In this document: one piece after another, positions 4,891 through 47,361 of the stretch
Layout: every line of letters starts with the position of its first letter
Numbering within the stretch: position 1 is the first letter of the stretch
Assembly: GCF_000720255.1 (NCBI RefSeq)
Contig: NZ_JOJE01000002.1
Coordinates: forward strand, 62,001 to 126,000
From: Streptomyces griseus subsp. griseus
Lineage (GTDB): Bacteria > Actinomycetota > Actinomycetes > Streptomycetales > Streptomycetaceae
Direction: 5' to 3'
DNA: 64,000 nucleotides
The notes under the pieces: generated by a model
What the model was told of the DNA's origin: nothing
Databases searched by the model: none
The model's input: the letters and a program-made list of their open reading frames with translations, nothing else
Made by a program: the position numbers and the translations under genes

Positions 4891-6015
4891 TCACTTCTTC
4901 CCGGACGTCAGGTCACGGAGGGGATCGTTCGGGTCGGGCGGGATCGTGTCGTCCGGTACGGCTTCGGGGGCGTCCCGCACGGCCTGGAGTGTCAGGTAGG
5001 TGACGGCGCTGACCAGGTCACCGTCGCCCGGGCCCCCCAGGGTCGTGTTCCTCTCCTCCAGGGGCAGCGCGGTCTTCGGGTCGACGACGAGCCGGCTGCG
5101 GAGGTCCTCACCGTCGTACTCGATCGCCACCCCGGCCCGGCCGGCACTGTCGCGCACGGGGCCGACGAGACGGAGGTAGGGCAGCCCGGCCAGCACGTCG
5201 TAGAGCGCGGAGCGCAGTTCGGGGCTCACGGGGGACCTGAGCAGGGTGATGATGCCGTTGAAGACCGCCTCCTGCTCGGGTGTGTCCGGATTGCCGCTGT
5301 AGAGGTACGCCTTGAGGGCGCGGGGTTCGGTCGGCAGCTCGCGCAGGTCGTCCCAGTCGATCATCATGCCGGCGACCTGCCACCCCATCTGGGCGTCAGG
5401 CCCCTTCCCCGCCGGCGTCAGCGCGTACTGCCCGTTCCAGGCCCGGCTGATCATTCCCTCCCGGCACAGCCAGATCGTGCCCACGTCCGAGCCGTCCTTC
5501 CCGCCCCCCTTCCTCACGGGCACGGGCCTCCCCCAGGGCCGGGGCGAGTCGTCGGCGCCGGAGGTCATCTTCTGGCGCACCTTCCAGTAGGGGGCGTCGG
5601 TGGCCTTCGCGTCGGCGGCGGTGCCCGCGACCTCGTGCAGGAAGGACGCCGCGCCCGCGCTGGCCGCGGGGGGCGTGTCGCCGAACGGGACGGCCGGAAC
5701 GGCCACCGCCCCGGCGACGACGGCCGCGACGGCGACGGAGAGGAGGACGCGGCTGCGGCGGGTACGGCCGAAGGGGCGCCAGGACAGGAGCCGGGTCCTG
5801 GGCGAGGCCCGGTCGGCGCCCACCCGCGCGCCGACCCCCACGCCGGCGCCGGGATCCACGCCCACACCCGCGCTCACGCCCGCACCGTCGGAAGCAGCGG
5901 CCAGCCGTACGGCGGCCAGCGCCGCGGCGACCACGGCGGTGTCGGGCGGGGCGACCTCACCGGCGGCGACCAGACGGTCCGCGCCGGGGAAGCCGAGAAC
6001 CTCGTGCTCGCTCAT
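4891..6015 (-). CDS. CU044_5270-type membrane protein, partner of ECF sigma factor
   Basis: A 374-residue protein with a cytosolic N-terminal segment of about 85 residues, one membrane segment (SRVLLSVAVAAVVAGAV, about 87-110) and an exported C-terminal domain with WKVRQKM and a CREGM motif. This layout matches the CU044_5270 family, which is commonly encoded beside ECF sigma factors in actinomycetes. A sensor or anti-sigma role is inferred from the overlap with the sigma gene, not from a recognisable zinc-binding anti-sigma motif. The ATG at 6013-6015 overlaps the sigma stop. A longer reading frame upstream is only the sigma gene in another frame. Confidence 0.78.
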   Translation of the reverse strand: MSEHEVLGFPGADRLVAAGEVAPPDTAVVAAALAAVRLAAASDGAGVSAGVGVDPGAGVGVGARVGADRASPRTRLLSWRPFGRTRRSRVLLSVAVAAVVAGAVAVPAVPFGDTPPAASAGAASFLHEVAGTAADAKATDAPYWKVRQKMTSGADDSPRPWGRPVPVRKGGGKDGSDVGTIWLCREGMISRAWNGQYALTPAGKGPDAQMGWQVAGMMIDWDDLRELPTEPRALKAYLYSGNPDTPEQEAVFNGIITLLRSPVSPELRSALYDVLAGLPYLRLVGPVRDSAGRAGVAIEYDGEDLRSRLVVDPKTALPLEERNTTLGGPGDGDLVSAVTYLTLQAVRDAPEAVPDDTIPPDPNDPLRDLTSGKK

Positions 6016-6641
6016 GCGAAGTCTCCTGTCGAACGCAGTACGGGGGAGGGCGAGGGCCGTGCGGTGTCGAGCGCCTCGCGCAGACGGCCGCGCGCCCGGT
6101 GCAGTCGGGAGCGCGCGGTGCCGGGGGGTATGCCGAGCACGGCGGCGGCCTCGGTCGGGGTGAGCTGCTCCCAGGCGACGAGCAGCAACAGCTCCCGCTC
6201 CACGTGCGGGAGTTCGGCCAGGGTGCGGCGTACCAGCGGGGCGAGCGCGGCGGCGTCGAGCCGCTGATCCACCGCGTGCCACGGGTCGTTCTCGGCCGGT
6301 CCGCGCCCAGGCGGCTCGGGTTCCGTCCTGGATCGCTCCCGAGCGGTGCGCCGCCAGTGCGTGGCCAGCACGTTTCTGGCCACACCGAACAGCCAGGTGC
6401 GGACGGTGCCGCGGGCCTGGTCGAAGGTGCGGCGGCTCGCGTAGGCCTGGAGCCAGACCTCGGAGAGCAGATCGTCGGCGGCGGTGGGCGCCCGGCGCGT
6501 CAAATACCCGTGCAGCGCCACCGAGTGACGGGTGACCAGCGTCTCGAACGCCGCCGGGTCACGGGCCGAGCGGGCCAGCAGATCGCCCTCGTCCGGCACA
6601 TCGCCGTCCGCCTCCGGCCGCCGTAACGGTTCCTGTGTCAT
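6012..6641 (-). CDS. ECF RNA polymerase sigma factor
   Basis: A 209-residue sigma-70 family protein with only regions 2 and 4. Region 2 covers about residues 27-98 (FETLVTRHS, DDLLSEVWLQAY, TWLFGVARNVL); region 4 covers about 135-190 (ELPHVERELLLLVAWEQLTPTEAAAVLG, ARSRLHRARGRL). It directs RNA polymerase to a small promoter set and usually its own operon. GAAGGGGACTC precedes the ATG. The stop overlaps the start of the membrane partner, so the two are probably made in fixed ratio. GTTTCAC at about 6744 on this strand, followed by CGTC, could be an autoregulated ECF promoter, but this is weak. Confidence 0.92.
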   Translation of the reverse strand: MTQEPLRRPEADGDVPDEGDLLARSARDPAAFETLVTRHSVALHGYLTRRAPTAADDLLSEVWLQAYASRRTFDQARGTVRTWLFGVARNVLATHWRRTARERSRTEPEPPGRGPAENDPWHAVDQRLDAAALAPLVRRTLAELPHVERELLLLVAWEQLTPTEAAAVLGIPPGTARSRLHRARGRLREALDTARPSPSPVLRSTGDFA

Positions 6642-6999
6642 GAGTCCCCTTCAGTCCCCATCCGTGACCGAACGAGACGGCCACACCCTCTACTTGGCGA
6701 CCGGGAGCCCGGGCGTTCGCGACGGGTCGGGGCGAGGGTGTGAAACTGGCCGCCCACAGTCGCGGCGGCGTCACCGCGACCGCCGCGGCCGACGCGCGGC
6801 CACCAACCGCGTACATGCAAGGCGTCGGGCCAGGCCCTGGACACAGGCAGGTTTGTGTCGCAGCCGCCGGCCATGGACCGGGCCGCCGATGACGCTACGG
6901 CGCGCTCCCTTGCGTCCCAGTGCCATGGCACCTCTTCGGCAGGGGGAGGCCGGCGTATGTGCCCCCGTGTCGTTCCGGTTTCCGGGGCGCGATGTCTGG
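6642..6999. other. Intergenic region with no convincing gene
   Basis: These 358 bases lie between the TetR stop and the sigma-factor start. Frames crossing it lack family resemblance and are extensions of neighbouring-gene shadows. It holds a 7-bp inverted repeat (GTCGCGG 6759-6765 with CCGCGAC 6774-6780) that may terminate the TetR transcript, and presumably the sigma-factor promoter. Confidence 0.5.
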
Positions 7000-7653
7000 T
7001 CAGCGGCCCGTCGCCAGCAGGCCGTTGACCACCAGGGACGCCAGGGACTCGGCCGTGGCCGCCTGCTGTTGCGGGGAGGTGGGCTCGGGCCTGCCGAGGC
7101 GGCGGGCCAGGGGCATGTCGAGCATGCCCGAGACAGGGGGGATGACGGCGAAGAACAGGATGTCGACCGGGACGGGGGCCATGCGCCCGTCGGCGACGAG
7201 TGCGTCGATGCAGGTGGCCATGGTCTGCAGGGTGGGGGCGATGTAGTGCTCGTACAGGTACTCCAACCGCTCGGTGTCCCGGTTGAGTTCGCCGACGAGG
7301 AGCCGGGCGACCAGCGGGGCGTCCGCCGCGGTGCGGTAGAAGCCCGTGATGATCTGCCGTAGCCGCTCGGCTTCGTCGAGGGAGGGGTCGACGTAAGGAA
7401 GGCGGGCCAGTTGCGCGCCCAGGGCGTCGTCGACCACCGCGCGCCAGAAGGCGGCCTTGGACCCGTAGCGGTCGTTGATGAAGTTGTGGCTGACACCCAG
7501 GCGGCGGGCCAGCTCGCGCGCGGAGGCGTGGTCGTAGCCCAGCTCGGCGAAGGCCTCAAGGCCGCGCAGCAGGATGCTCTCCTCCTCGGGCACCGCGGGG
7601 GTGCCCGAGCCGGGGCGCCCGGGCCGTCGGGCGGACTCGGTTCGCGCTCCCAT
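7000..7653 (-). CDS. TetR-family repressor of the adjacent DHA2 efflux gene
   Basis: About 217 residues. An N-terminal helix-turn-helix (ELARRLGVSHNFINDRYGSKAAFW) follows a basic RRPGRPGSG stretch; the C-terminal ligand domain is unassigned. Two starts each have a near-perfect Shine-Dalgarno: GTG at 7671 with GAGGAGG five bases upstream, and ATG at 7653 with another GAGGAGG five bases upstream. The second is used here. It is transcribed divergently from an MFS drug transporter, with a double palindrome between them, which is the usual layout for a repressor that controls both genes and responds to a transported compound. Confidence 0.87.
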   Translation of the reverse strand: MGARTESARRPGRPGSGTPAVPEEESILLRGLEAFAELGYDHASARELARRLGVSHNFINDRYGSKAAFWRAVVDDALGAQLARLPYVDPSLDEAERLRQIITGFYRTAADAPLVARLLVGELNRDTERLEYLYEHYIAPTLQTMATCIDALVADGRMAPVPVDILFFAVIPPVSGMLDMPLARRLGRPEPTSPQQQAATAESLASLVVNGLLATGR

Positions 7654-7713
7654 CCCTGCCTCCTCATTCACCGGTGGCCTCCTCGATCGCCGGACACCTG
7701 CCGACCAGCTTAC

Positions 7714-7752
7714 TTGACACCTGTCAGACGACGACTAATCTGACAGGTGTCA
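7714..7752. promoter_or_regulatory. Double TetR operator over the efflux promoter
   Basis: TGACACCTGTCA (7715-7726) and TGACAGGTGTCA (7741-7752) are reverse complements of each other and each is itself near-palindromic (TGACA-NN-TGTCA), with centres 26 bp apart. TTGACA 7714-7719 and TAATCT 7736-7741, separated by 16 bp, form a plausible rightward promoter lying between and within the sites. Binding here would block the MFS promoter and the tetR start region. Confidence 0.75.
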
Positions 7753-7867
7753 GAGGTGCGGCCGACAGCCGCCGGAGAACGTGACGAGCTCCATCGACGC
7801 AGCCGTCCCGGCCCCGTACAGCCCGACCTCACGGATCCCCCCGCCCCACCCCTCAGGAGCCTTCGTC

Positions 7868-9385
7868 ATGCCCACACCCGCAGCCGATCCCTCGGTCGAC
7901 TCCCCCGACACGGAGGTCACGCCCCTGCCGCCCGGCCAGGCGCCGGCCCGCCACCGCTGGTGGATCCTCGCCGTCATCGGCGTGGCCCAGCTCATGGTCG
8001 TGCTGGACGCGACCATCGTGAACATCGCGCTGCCCTCGGCCCAGAAGGACCTCGGCTTCTCCGACGGCGACCGGCAGTGGGTCGTGACCGCCTACGCGCT
8101 CGCCTTCGGCAGCCTGCTCCTCCTCGGCGGACGCACAGCCGACCTGTTCGGCCGCAAGATGACCTTCCTCGTCGGCCTGGTCGGCTTCGCCGGGGCCTCC
8201 GCCGTCGGCGGCGCCGCCACCAGCTTCGAGATGCTCATCGTCGCGCGGGCCGGGCAGGGACTGTTCGGTGCGCTGCTCGCACCGGCCGCCCTCTCCCTGC
8301 TCACCGTGACCTTCACCGACGCCAGGGAACGCGCCAAGGCCTTCGGCGTCTACGGCGCCATCGCCGGCGCCGGCGGCGCGATCGGGCTGCTGCTCGGCGG
8401 TGTACTGACCGAGTACTTCGACTGGCGCTGGACCCTCTTCGTCAACCTCGCCTTCGCCGTGGTCGCCATCGCCGGCGGTGTCCTGCTGCTCCAGCGCAGC
8501 GTCCGGGACAAGTCCGCCACGATCGACATCCCCGGCGCCGTCCTCGTCGGCGGCGGCCTGTTCTGCCTGGTCTACGGCTTCTCCAACGCCGAGAGCCACG
8601 ACTGGGACTCCGTCGCCACCTGGGGTTTCCTGCTCGCCGGCGCCGTCCTGCTCACCGCGTTCACCTGGTGGCAGACCCGCACCACCCATCCCCTCCTGCC
8701 CCTGCGGATCCTGCTCGACCGCAACCGCGGCGCCTCCTACATCGCCATCCTGATCACCGGCGCCGGAATGTTCGGGGTCTTCCTCTTCCTCACCTACTAC
8801 CTGCAGCAGAGCCTCGGCTACACGCCCATCAAGACCGGGCTGGCGTTCCTGCCCATGGTCGCCGGACTCATGCTGGCCTCCACGCTCGCCTCGACCGTAC
8901 TGATCCCCCGCCTCGGCCCCAAGCCGGTCGTCCCGCTGGGCATGGGCCTCGCCGCGGCCGCCATGGTGTGGCTGACCAACCTCGACCTGACCAGCGGCTA
9001 CGCCACCGACATCCTGCCCCCGCTCGTCGCGGCGGGCCTCGGACTCGGCCTGGTGATGGCGCCGGGCATGAGCCTGGCCACCGCCGGCGTGCGCGCCGAG
9101 GACTCCGGTGTCGCCTCCGCCGCCGTCAACACCATGCAACAGGTCGGCGGCTCCCTCGGTACGGCCCTGCTCAACGCCCTCTCCACCAGCGCCGCCGCCG
9201 ACTACCTCGTCGGCAGGAACCCCAAGGACCCCGCCGTCCTCGCCCACGCCGGCCTCGAGGCCTACTCCACCGCCTACTGGTGGTCGGCCGCCTTCTTCGC
9301 CGCCGGCCTCGTCGTCAGCGCCCTCCTCTACCGCCGCGGCGCCCCGGCCACCGACCCGGACGCGGCGCCCGTGGTCCACATGTGA
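7868..9385 (+). CDS. MFS drug efflux transporter, DHA2 (EmrB/QacA) family
   Basis: A 505-residue integral membrane protein with about 14 hydrophobic segments, the size and count of the DHA2 group of proton-coupled multidrug exporters. Signature segments are LDATIVNIALPSAQKDL in helix 1 and GGRTADLFGRKMTF in the helix 2-3 loop. The ATG at 7868 has AGGAG eight bases upstream and fits the family better than an upstream in-frame start at 7781. It is divergent from the TetR gene, with the double operator between them, so it is probably derepressed by a toxic or antibiotic ligand. The substrate cannot be read from the sequence. Confidence 0.9.
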   Translation: MPTPAADPSVDSPDTEVTPLPPGQAPARHRWWILAVIGVAQLMVVLDATIVNIALPSAQKDLGFSDGDRQWVVTAYALAFGSLLLLGGRTADLFGRKMTFLVGLVGFAGASAVGGAATSFEMLIVARAGQGLFGALLAPAALSLLTVTFTDARERAKAFGVYGAIAGAGGAIGLLLGGVLTEYFDWRWTLFVNLAFAVVAIAGGVLLLQRSVRDKSATIDIPGAVLVGGGLFCLVYGFSNAESHDWDSVATWGFLLAGAVLLTAFTWWQTRTTHPLLPLRILLDRNRGASYIAILITGAGMFGVFLFLTYYLQQSLGYTPIKTGLAFLPMVAGLMLASTLASTVLIPRLGPKPVVPLGMGLAAAAMVWLTNLDLTSGYATDILPPLVAAGLGLGLVMAPGMSLATAGVRAEDSGVASAAVNTMQQVGGSLGTALLNALSTSAAADYLVGRNPKDPAVLAHAGLEAYSTAYWWSAAFFAAGLVVSALLYRRGAPATDPDAAPVVHM

Positions 9386-43745: not shown

Positions 43746-45059
43746 TCAGGCAGTGTGTTCGGGGCCGGAAGCGCGTCCGACACTGAGGTAGGTGTAACCC
43801 AGGGCCTGCATGGTCGTGAGGTCGAGGACGTTCCGTCCGTCGAAGATGACGGGCGTCTGCATACGGGTGACGTGGGCGCTCCAGTCGGTGTCACGGAGTT
43901 CGGGCCACTCGGTGACGACGACGGCGGCGTCTGCATGGTCGAGGGCCTCGCTGATGCCGGGGTGGCGTTCGGCTGTGTCCCAGGGGGCTCCGGGACCGGG
44001 GCGGGCCATGGGGTCCCAGCAGCGGACGTGGGCGCCTTCGGCCAGCAGGCGGGCGGCGATGATGGTGCTCGGTGCTTCGCGCATGTCGTCGGTGCCGGGT
44101 TTGAAGGTCATGCCGAGCAGGGTGACGGTGCGGCCTTTCAGGGTGCCCAGTTGGGTCTTCAGACGTTGGACGGCGCGGCGGGGCTGGAGCTCGTTGACTT
44201 CGATGACGGCGGTCAGGAGCTGGAAGGGGTAGCCGGTGTTGCTGGCGAGAGCACGCAGGGCGCGGGAGTCCTTGGGGAAACAGCTGCCACCGTAGCCGAG
44301 GCCGGCGTTCATGAAGTGCGGGCCGAGCCGGTGGTCCTGGCCGATGGCGCGGGTGACATGGGTGATGTCGGCGCCGGTGGCCTCGCACAGCGCGGCGATC
44401 TCGTTGGTGAAGGAGATCTTGGTGGCGAGCAGCGCGTTGGCGGCCATCTTGACCATTTCCGCGGAGGCGATGTCCATGACGTCGACCGGGCCGTCGATGC
44501 CGTCGTGGAGGGCGGCCACGAGGTCGGCGGTCTCGGTGTCCGTGGCACCGATGACGATGCGGTCGGGTCGCATGAAGTCGGTGATGGCGCGGCCTTCGGC
44601 GGTGAACTCGGGGTTGGAGGCGTAGCCGACGTGTCCCAGACCGGCCTCGTCCAGAGCCCGGCGGATGCGCTCGCCGGTTCCGACGGGCACGGTGCTCTTG
44701 ACGACGACGGCCTTGAGGTGGCCGGCGGTGCCCAGGGTGTCGATGACGGCCCACACCCGGGAGAGGTCGGCATCGCCGGAGGCGGTGGGCGGGGTGTCGA
44801 CGCAGATGTAGGCGACGTCGGCGTCACGGACGGCTTCGTCGCCGTCCAGGGTGTAGGACAGGCGCTCCTTGTTGCGGGCGAGCATGTCACCCAGGCCGGG
44901 CTCGTAAATGGGCACCTCGCCGGAGTTGAGGATCCGGACGCGTTCGGGCTGGATGTCGCGAATGGTGACGTGGTGGCCCAGCTCGGCGAAGCAGGCGCCG
45001 GCGACCAGGCCGATGTACCCGGCGCCGAAGATGGTGACGCGGTGGGCGGGGCGGCTCAT
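43746..45059 (-). CDS. ugd: UDP-glucose 6-dehydrogenase
   Basis: A 437-residue NAD-dependent enzyme that oxidises UDP-glucose to UDP-glucuronate. The Rossmann motif is FGAGYIGLVAGACFAELGH (about 10-28); CVDTPP, VVKSTVPVGTG, NPEFTAEG and the catalytic Cys in LGYGGSCFPKD follow, and LLGMTFKPGTDDMREAPS marks the C-terminal binding domain. It is the last gene of a leftward set behind a hyaluronan-synthase-like GT2 (204 bp gap). This suggests it feeds glucuronate into that polymer; related enzymes that use UDP-ManNAc are less likely given the motifs. Confidence 0.94.
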   Translation of the reverse strand: MSRPAHRVTIFGAGYIGLVAGACFAELGHHVTIRDIQPERVRILNSGEVPIYEPGLGDMLARNKERLSYTLDGDEAVRDADVAYICVDTPPTASGDADLSRVWAVIDTLGTAGHLKAVVVKSTVPVGTGERIRRALDEAGLGHVGYASNPEFTAEGRAITDFMRPDRIVIGATDTETADLVAALHDGIDGPVDVMDIASAEMVKMAANALLATKISFTNEIAALCEATGADITHVTRAIGQDHRLGPHFMNAGLGYGGSCFPKDSRALRALASNTGYPFQLLTAVIEVNELQPRRAVQRLKTQLGTLKGRTVTLLGMTFKPGTDDMREAPSTIIAARLLAEGAHVRCWDPMARPGPGAPWDTAERHPGISEALDHADAAVVVTEWPELRDTDWSAHVTRMQTPVIFDGRNVLDLTTMQALGYTYLSVGRASGPEHTA

Positions 45060-45263
45060 GACAGGGTCCTTCCCTGTTGAGGCGGACCGCAGCGCACGGC
45101 TGCGGCCCCCGGACAGACGTAAGAGTTGCGCCCATCCTCACCCCTGCGCCGCGCGGCGCGCGGACGTGAAGGGGCAAGGACGGGGTGCAGGGGATGGGAG
45201 CAGGGAAGGTACCGGCAGGCGTCCTGGATCAGCCGGGCGTGGGCGGCACGGCCGATGCGGGAG

Positions 45264-46667
45264 TCAACTGGACGGGGCAGCCGCCGGGGCCGCGCCGGCG
45301 GCGAGAGAAACCTCGGCGCCGTTCTGCCGCGTGCCCCAGCCGGTCTTGGCGCAGGTCAAGATGCCGTACCAGCGCAGACTGCGCAGCAGGGTCCAGGCCA
45401 GCACGATGGCCAGCGGCATGGCCAGCCACGTCATGGCTCGCTGCCGGATCCGCTCGTCGGAACGGATGATGCTCAGGTAACGGAGGCCCTGCGCGTAGCC
45501 GATCAGGAACGGGATGACGAGCATGCTCTTGGGCGGCCAGTCCCGGTAGACGAGCGGCACCACCACCAACAGCCATACGGTGACCATCTGCGTGAGGATC
45601 ATCTGCAGCCAGCGCATGGCGTGCAGCCAGTACGCGGGCCGCGCCGGTGACAGGTACCGCATCCGCCACACCGACCGGATCGTCGATCCCCGCATCCACC
45701 GCAGATACATCCGCGAGAAGTGCCCCCAGTTCTCCGGCATCGCCGTGAAGCAGATCGCTCGCGGCTGCTGCACCGTCAGGCCCCGCTGCTGCGCATACAA
45801 GGTGAGCAGGCTGTCGTCGGAGAACATCACCGGCCGGCCCATGAACGTCTCGTTCAGATAGGAACCGAGGTTGTCGCGGATGACGCCGGCCCGGTAGGCG
45901 GCGAGCGGACCGGAGTTGACCATGACCGCGCCGAGGGAGGACTGTCCCGATCGATCCACCAACTGGCACACCACGAACCACAGATCGGTCACCCGCACCA
46001 ACCAGTTGACCCGGTTGTTCGTGGCGATCACGATGCCGGCCACCGACTGAACCCGCGGCCGCGCGAAGGGAAGCAGCGACTGTTCCACCGCGTTCGGCGC
46101 GAAGCACGAGTCCGAGTCGCACGTGATGTAGATGTCGGCCTCGGGACTGACCCGCACCCCGTGCGCCTGGGCGTGCCGCTTACCGCCGTTGGCCACCCGC
46201 TGCCACGTCGTGGCCAACCCCGCGTCGGCGGCGGCCTGCTCCCACCATGCCCTCACCTCGGCATAGTCGCTCGAAGTGGACCCGTCATCGACGACGTGCA
46301 CCGAATCGGGCAGCCGCGTCTGGCGGAGGAAGCTTTCGAGTCCCAGCTTCAGGTAACCGGGGTCCTCGTTGTAGACGGGCACGAGGATGGACACGTGCAG
46401 GGCGTCGAGCTGTCGCCGCGCCCGCTCGCTCACCCGTGGGACCCGCTCAAGGTGATACATGAAGGTCTGCAGCAGGAAGACCAGGAAGAGGCTGATCCAG
46501 ACGACGGTCAGCCGGCTGCGCATGTCGGGGTCAGCCGTGAAGTTCACCACGGCGTGGTGGGTGGTCCACCCGGCAGCGAGCAACAGGACAAGGATGCCCA
46601 TGGCGACGGTCCAGGACCGGTGCTGATGGGCACTCAGCACCGGTGCTTGGCGATTGCGACGGTTCAC
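45264..46667 (-). CDS. Membrane-embedded GT2 polysaccharide synthase, hyaluronan-synthase-like
   Basis: A 467-residue processive-type glycosyltransferase. Two N-terminal membrane segments (about 17-37 and 50-70) precede the GT-A domain: LVPVYNEDPGYLKLGLESFL, VVDDGSTSSDY, the metal motif YITCDSDSCF, FSDDSLLTLYAQQRG and YLRWMRGSTIRS (in place of the QxxRW of synthases). Four more membrane segments follow. This is the topology of class I hyaluronan synthases, which make and export the polymer. GTG 46667 overlaps the stop of the upstream LAXTG peptide. Ugd downstream supports a glucuronate-containing product; the second sugar is unknown. Confidence 0.85.
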   Translation of the reverse strand: MNRRNRQAPVLSAHQHRSWTVAMGILVLLLAAGWTTHHAVVNFTADPDMRSRLTVVWISLFLVFLLQTFMYHLERVPRVSERARRQLDALHVSILVPVYNEDPGYLKLGLESFLRQTRLPDSVHVVDDGSTSSDYAEVRAWWEQAAADAGLATTWQRVANGGKRHAQAHGVRVSPEADIYITCDSDSCFAPNAVEQSLLPFARPRVQSVAGIVIATNNRVNWLVRVTDLWFVVCQLVDRSGQSSLGAVMVNSGPLAAYRAGVIRDNLGSYLNETFMGRPVMFSDDSLLTLYAQQRGLTVQQPRAICFTAMPENWGHFSRMYLRWMRGSTIRSVWRMRYLSPARPAYWLHAMRWLQMILTQMVTVWLLVVVPLVYRDWPPKSMLVIPFLIGYAQGLRYLSIIRSDERIRQRAMTWLAMPLAIVLAWTLLRSLRWYGILTCAKTGWGTRQNGAEVSLAAGAAPAAAPSS

Positions 46668-46864
46668 TTCTGGTGCTGCGCACCCGTCGTGGTCGCGTTC
46701 TCGCCGATGGCGATCTTGCGTCGGAATCCGAAGCGGACGAGCAGCAGGCCGAGGCAGACCAGGCCGGCTGCCGCCGCGAGCATCCATCCCCCGATGGGAT
46801 AACTGACCCCGCCGATGACAAGAACCGGAGTCCCTGTCTGAGCAAGTTGAGCGTGTCCGGACAT
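46664..46864 (-). CDS. 66-residue peptide consisting mostly of a LAXTG sortase sorting signal
   Basis: MSGHAQ is followed at once by LAQTG (residues 7-11), a hydrophobic stretch of about 30 residues and the basic stop RFGFRRK (44-50), then a 16-residue polar tail. LAXTG-hydrophobic-basic is the recognition signal of class E sortases in Streptomyces, but here no mature domain precedes it and there is no signal peptide. The stop overlaps the GT2 start, so it is translated with the synthase. It may be a small membrane subunit. The ATG at 46864 follows a GGGGGA. Confidence 0.72.
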   Translation of the reverse strand: MSGHAQLAQTGTPVLVIGGVSYPIGGWMLAAAAGLVCLGLLLVRFGFRRKIAIGENATTTGAQHQK

Positions 46865-47361
46865 GACGTGAATCCCCCCATGGGAACGACTGTTGGATAA
46901 AAAAGATGATAGGACCACCGATCAAGCCCACCATGGGCTCTTGAACGTTGAACGAGCCGTCGGAGACACACGGAAGAGTGACGCCGGGCCTGACAGAGAG
47001 TCATGAATGCAGGTCAGATGAGTAGATGGCTCGACCATCTATCGTGATGAAACTGCGACATTCTTTTTTTACGCAGTCCAACTCGACGAATCCCGCTGCT
47101 CGGGTGCCAGCCCGGAGGGACCGAATCGTTGGCCAAAGCTCGAAAGCATTGGCCAATGATTTTGGTCCCCTTGTCTTTCAGAAACGGAATCGTCCCGGAC
47201 CTGACTCAAACAAAACAGGTCGAGCGGCCGGATGACGGTCCGGGAGTCGCCCGATGACCGGGCCGCCACGTCACGCGATTGCCTGGCCACGCTGCCTCCA
47301 GCGTGCGCGCCAGCTGCTGACCAGGTGTCTGCGACGTTGCACCTGCAGCCGCCCGGCGATC
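46865..47361. other. AT-richer intergenic region upstream of the polysaccharide operon
   Basis: About 500 bases of clearly lower GC than the surroundings, with no supportable gene; short frames inside (for example at 47026) lack codon bias. It holds TAGATGG/CCATCTA (47023-47029 with 47035-47041, perfect 7-5-7), a T7 run at about 47062, and two TTGGCCAA palindromes at 47129-47136 and 47149-47156. It probably carries the operon promoter and its operators. Confidence 0.6.
47129..47156. promoter_or_regulatory. Pair of TTGGCCAA palindromes
   Basis: Two identical self-complementary octamers have starts exactly 20 bp apart, about two helical turns, so two dimers could bind on one face of the helix. 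They lie about 265 bp upstream of the LAXTG-peptide start and 206 bp from the stop of the nuclease gene. Confidence 0.45.

Follow-up and report, generated by a model that had tools for sequence, protein, structure and literature searches.

Protein anchoring is the established role of sortases, and polymer extrusion that of processive synthases; how synthase-extruded polymers are held on the Gram-positive wall is, to our knowledge, poorly understood. Some processive family 2 glycosyltransferases (GT2s) are encoded beside a small membrane protein, as with the PgaD and IcaD subunits, which have two helices and no sorting motif. We know of no such partner that hyaluronan synthases need. In Streptomyces, LAxTG is the recognition motif of class E sortases, which attach chaplins (PMC5148588). 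The PEP-CTERM/EpsH exosortase system links a sorting signal to exopolysaccharide genes (PMC1569441). Its motif is another one, its transpeptidase is unrelated, its signals sit on larger proteins and its hosts possess an outer membrane. In the actinobacterium Actinomyces oris, a glycopolymer is joined to the sortase-anchored wall protein GspA with LcpA; this route uses an LCP phosphotransferase and a large protein, and the abstract of the paper describes neither a bare signal nor pairing with a synthase (PMC6381275). 

The window analysed here is a stretch of 64,000 nucleotides from the 9.89 Mb genome of Streptomyces griseus subsp. griseus. On its minus strand, a microprotein gene (46664..46864, stop included) encodes 66 residues that amount to a bare sorting signal. 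The N-terminus reads MSGHAQ-LAQTG, so that six residues precede the motif (residues 7–11, 46832..46846). A hydrophobic part follows (residues 12–43, 46736..46831), which passes the hydropathy filter of our detector and whose second half probably forms a membrane helix, and then a basic end, RFGFRRK (residues 44–50, 46715..46735). The purine-rich GGGGGGA 5′ of the start (46873..46879) is probably the ribosome-binding site. The microprotein stop TGA and the GT2 start GTG overlap by 4 bp in the shared GTGA (46664..46667), and the GT2 gene (45264..46667) encodes 467 residues. A nucleotide-sugar dehydrogenase gene (43746..45059, 437 residues) lies 204 bp downstream on the same strand, without overlap. 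The sequence-only reading had described the short frame with its motif, hydrophobic stretch, basic end and shared stop and start, followed by a Ugd-type gene, and each of these was found. The nearest named relatives of both the microprotein and the GT2 are Streptomyces proteins.

Relatives 80% identical to the window microprotein occur in other Streptomyces, and L-[A/P]-x-T-G is kept in 36 of the 37 microproteins at related GT2 loci, which is why we regard the window frame as a real gene. This set of 37 was anchored on the GT2, except at L092, and the motif counts were anchored on the motif; the variable N-terminus disturbed the ranking of MAFFT columns there. LAxTG is present in 35, as LAQTG (14), LAATG (10), LARTG (3), LATTG (3), LAKTG (2) and LAHTG, LAITG and LALTG (1 each), while one has LPTTG, still a sortase motif, and one has no motif. 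Over the 36 motif-bearing microproteins, L is kept in 36 with five codons, A in 35 with four codons (one has P), T in 36 with three codons and G in 36 with four codons, and position x takes eight different residues. Read at the codon level, the L[A/P]xTG motif is under selection. A protein search with the peptide profile, in which 7,993 candidates were scored, gave LAxTG in 76 of 77 matches, the sole exception (P0153) being similar to the motif-less peptide of L090; pooled distinct peptides carried the motif in 110 of 112, both counts being partly circular in that the profile itself contains the motif.

The gene is very short, and no Pfam or NCBIfam model matched the window microprotein at E values up to 1, a search in which short proteins are easily missed. 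This could suggest a chance reading frame or an annotation artefact. That explanation was ruled out, its likelihood being practically nil, by conservation with synonymous codon change in 37 loci of several families and by near-zero control rates. With the same detector, none of 305 other genes (at least 150 residues, same loci) had a bare signal upstream. Over 1.27 million strand-bases the detector found 40 such frames, one of them (L077, LAETG) away from the GT2. In the 1,264,000 bp of the window genome that were scanned (about 13%), the window microprotein was the single bare signal; the same sequence held four candidates in longer frames, of which three are convincing as C-terminal LAxTG signals, on proteins of 553, 266 and 332 residues.

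Members of the family are 48–75 residues long, with 5–21 residues ahead of the motif. Lysine or arginine occurs ahead of the motif in 2 of 37, and at least three such residues lie in the last 30 positions of all 37, a distribution that favours an N-out, C-in topology. G19 and R44 (window numbering) are near-invariant, and W27 and R48 are strongly conserved. The microproteins share with class E substrates (LAxTG proteins, e.g. the chaplins ChpA–C) the motif, the hydrophobic segment and basic end that such substrates require after it, and, in the window genome, an SrtE1 orthologue. Of seven long-frame matches to the peptide profiles, three (L058, L193, L195) are genuine sorting signals at the C-terminus of larger proteins, although these matches are weak. 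In contrast to class E substrates, the microproteins have no signal peptide and no exported mature domain, so few residues preceding the motif that no cargo is evident, and their gene overlaps a synthase gene; the family is therefore not filed with the ordinary substrates. The spacing from motif to helix core is longer in the subgroup of the window than in the three genuine signals of the same genome, and the window peptide lacks the Pro-Glu-Pro that marks PEP-CTERM signals before the helix. NCBI gives some relatives the name ‘LPXTG cell wall anchor domain-containing protein’, so automatic annotation already sees the signal. Named sources of relatives include Streptomyces, Kitasatospora, Yinghuangia, Nocardiopsis, Halostreptopolyspora, Haloactinospora, Lipingzhangella, Phytoactinopolyspora and Actinomadura.

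The pairing of microprotein and GT2 was surveyed at loci reached through GT2 searches, plus one (G216:C12, L092) reached through the peptide profile alone. The 45 locus rows included three contigs recognised as duplicates by their length (L076 = L015, L077 = L013, L078 = L022), leaving 42 unique loci; the GT2 profile was built from peptide-bearing loci, and the survey is thus biased towards such members of the family. A bare L[A/P]xTG microprotein stood upstream of the GT2 in 36 of the 42. The detector, which searched between 450 bp upstream and 120 bp downstream of the estimated GT2 start, found 35 of these by itself (38 of 45 rows), and L098, with its peptide at a greater distance from that start, was added. 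The overlap with the GT2 start is exactly 4 bp in 26 of the 37 microprotein genes. The earlier proposal, in which a hyaluronan-synthase-like GT2 is coupled to a bare LAXTG peptide, was to be checked by whether peptide or motif is missing at homologous loci, and it survived that comparison in 36 of 42 cases. At L090 (genome G250) the microprotein is present without the motif, and no microprotein was found at the other five unique loci (L066, L068, L069, L070, L097). In a GT2 tree, several deep branches of which are long and unsure, these five and the microprotein-bearing L093 make up one divergent, starred group of six, and L090 is nested among motif-bearing loci, so that its motif was probably lost.

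Some minor features were seen in the same survey. The GT2s of L070 and L097, both without a microprotein, share a similar long N-terminal extension, which bears a resemblance to a GspE-type N-terminal domain. In L026 and L022 two frames share the GT2 match between them, reflecting frameshifts or sequencing errors. Two different copies of the pair occur in genome G094 (L080 with LARTG, L081 with LAHTG) and in genome G187 (G187:C13 and G187:C1, with LARTG and LAATG).

A second survey covered 199 Streptomyces genomes, with eight candidates scored per genome. At an E value of 1e-60, 19 of these genomes had matches to the GT2 profile, at 22 loci in total. The microprotein was present at all 12 GT2 loci scoring about 645 bits or more and at one of the 10 scoring 310–355 bits (G187:C1, L177), the other nine being without it. 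In the same sample the peptide profile gave 20 matches in 18 genomes. Thirteen stood at the above GT2 loci, and two further peptides (G117, G176) lay between a dehydrogenase gene and a GT2 still more distant in sequence (180 and 199 bits), so that all 15 intact microproteins of the sample adjoin a GT2 of this kind. One match, L199 (G047:C1, ~81155), is a decayed pair with the microprotein broken across two frames and nothing of the GT2 remaining but its end, indicating that this genome is losing the system. The remaining four matches, with three from the first survey, are stretches of long frames. Among the 120 GT2 proteins listed, no natural fusion of peptide and GT2 was seen.

The GT2 matches Pfam PF00535/PF13641. 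By alignment and structure model it has a GT-A domain with DxD, DD and xxRW motifs, channel helices and WGTR, and residues D184, D186, D284, D285, R323, W324, W444, T446 and R447 are invariant in 43 GT2 sequences. The nearest solved structures are those of class I hyaluronan synthases (Chlorella virus HAS and Xenopus HAS1), with which the predicted model shares the closest fold among solved synthases at about 17% identity over the fold. A profile search also places the GT2 nearest to hyaluronan synthases, and its WGTR segment aligns with that of CvHAS. It is thus a hyaluronan-synthase-like processive synthase by sequence, with a predicted hyaluronan-synthase fold. As with those enzymes, a UDP-sugar dehydrogenase gene is often nearby; unlike them, it is paired with a microprotein. 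The best NCBIfam equivalog by E value is the chitooligosaccharide synthase NodC (TIGR04242, 1.6e-37), yet the score of 129.4 bits against a curated cut-off of 550 ruled out that assignment.

The window dehydrogenase scores 400.6 bits against TIGR03026 (cut-off 189.8), placing it in the nucleotide-sugar dehydrogenase family, and its best specific model, TuaD, gives 449 bits, below the cut-off of 700; it is probably a UDP-glucose 6-dehydrogenase. Of the 35 unique loci mapped (38 rows), 14 have a nucleotide-sugar dehydrogenase gene in the vicinity of the pair, a lower bound since contig ends cut some loci. Its position varies, on either side of the pair and several genes away in L092. The eight dehydrogenases tested all score above the cut-off of the general family model and some score well with UDP-glucose dehydrogenase models, while those of L024, L079 and L080 have as second match an archaeal UDP-ManNAc dehydrogenase model, far below its cut-off. 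Being near the pair in only part of the loci, in varied places and of different subfamilies, the dehydrogenase does not belong to a fixed three-gene system, and the core is the pair rather than the trio. Of the peptide–GT2–Ugd order first read from the window, the first two members recur together at most loci of the family and the third at fewer. Deducing the polymer product from the dehydrogenase type led nowhere, as the subfamilies vary; the polymer probably contains a uronic acid where the gene is present, and the difference in subfamily suggests that this acid may differ between lineages. The dehydrogenase of L019 is split over two frames, by a frameshift or a sequencing error.

The reading we favour, with a probability of roughly 0.55, is that the microprotein is an N-out, single-pass partner of the synthase, processed by a class E sortase beside the polymer exit. 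Microprotein and GT2 would form a two-gene synthase module, in which we infer insertion, cleavage, contact and purpose from sequence. The microprotein would insert so that the short N-terminus faces outwards and the basic tail stays in the cell, packed beside the synthase, which would bring LAxTG near the exit of the polymer channel. A class E sortase would then cut between T and G and pass the N-terminal tag (10 residues in the window) to a wall amine while the helix stays with the synthase, and export or fixation of the polymer would thus be tied to sites of sortase action and wall synthesis. Counted in favour of sortase processing are the retention of the motif in 36 of 37 with free x and synonymous codons, the LPTTG variant, the profile matches to true signals, the distribution of basic residues, the 4-bp overlap, the strict pairing with the GT2, the SrtE1 orthologue and the HAS-like fold. 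Counted against it are the motif-less peptides of G250 (L090) and P0153, which show that a peptide can persist after loss of the motif, in G250 despite the presence of sortases, the lack of signal peptide and cargo, a sortase not being a recurrent neighbour, and the longer motif–helix spacing in the subgroup of the window.

The main rival is that the microprotein is an unprocessed single-helix subunit needed for stability, gating or assembly of the synthase, with no sortase role, and that LAxTG is kept as helix start and GT2 contact. Obligate pairing and gene overlap are what a subunit would show, as are G19, R44, W27 and R48, which are as conserved as the motif and fit this rival just as well, and small helix subunits are known from other synthases in PgaD and IcaD. 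The G250 and P0153 peptides, kept without the motif, also suit a subunit; sortase absence as the cause in G250 was ruled out by three PF04203 matches in that genome. However, a mere helix cap would not need a pattern that is exactly L-[A/P]-x-T-G with free x, the known class E signal, and that leads, as sorting signals do, into a helix and a basic end; we consider the subunit explanation rather unlikely.

In a stronger version of sortase processing, the micropeptide tag would serve a class E sortase to attach a hyaluronan-like polysaccharide covalently to peptidoglycan. Here the chain would be joined at the synthase exit to the N-terminal tag, and the sortase would then move tag and polymer to the wall. 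A serine, threonine or tyrosine occurs ahead of the motif in all 37 microproteins (in L090, within the first six residues), with tyrosine in 18, which in such short stretches is only suggestive, and we regard covalent fixation as doubtful.

The window genome contains an SrtE1 orthologue, which matches 5cuw at 2.2e-112, and one more sortase similar to it; several sortases per genome were seen. The bare signal, as a cargo-free sortase substrate among several sortases, could also recruit, pace or occupy a sortase as a decoy or docking site, timing or placing the anchoring of other proteins with polymer export. Strict pairing with one synthase family points instead to work for the synthase, and the system is confined to a minority of genomes (GT2 in 19 of 199 at E 1e-60); a decoy is quite improbable, and processing of a synthase partner remains the preferred reading.

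In the open-access literature searched, which covered few subscription papers, we found no description of a bare-signal peptide arranged with a synthase; the parts are of known kinds, and the combination is, as far as could be seen, undescribed. A sortase study in Actinoplanes predicted substrates by motif, helix and basic residues, and the word glycosyltransferase is absent from its main text (PMC13251363). Surveys of sortase substrates that require a signal peptide would miss the whole family. The conserved pair, found in Streptomyces and other actinobacteria, marks a place where wall anchoring and polymer extrusion may meet, hints at an undescribed link between sortases and surface polymers, and frames a simple question, whether a peptide of about 60 residues is cleaved by sortase as its substrate and thereby controls a polysaccharide or anchors it. 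If covalent fixation were true, polysaccharides made by synthases would have a route to the wall by way of a protein tag, unlike that of LCP transfer.

Apart from the dehydrogenase, no neighbour family lies near more than three loci. One other family is near three (L021, L080, L085), and the remainder recur only in near-identical loci. Among the neighbours annotated, no cluster recurring in at least three loci could be assigned to sortase. In G195:C2 the pair has a sortase gene at a distance of about 10 kb (235312–235734 and 245435–246820), which may be coincidence. In L081, a 901-residue repeat protein (DUF11, DUF7507, DUF7933; 5557–8259, plus strand) ends shortly before the bare LAHTG microprotein; it may be a surface protein that has no sorting signal itself. 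Carbohydrate enzymes occur near the pair at single loci, namely a YdjC-like protein (L021, 9092–10129), a GH16-lectin protein (L020, 4037–5407), a GHL10 protein (L018, 8602–9927) and a GH26-like protein (L090, 10547–11557).
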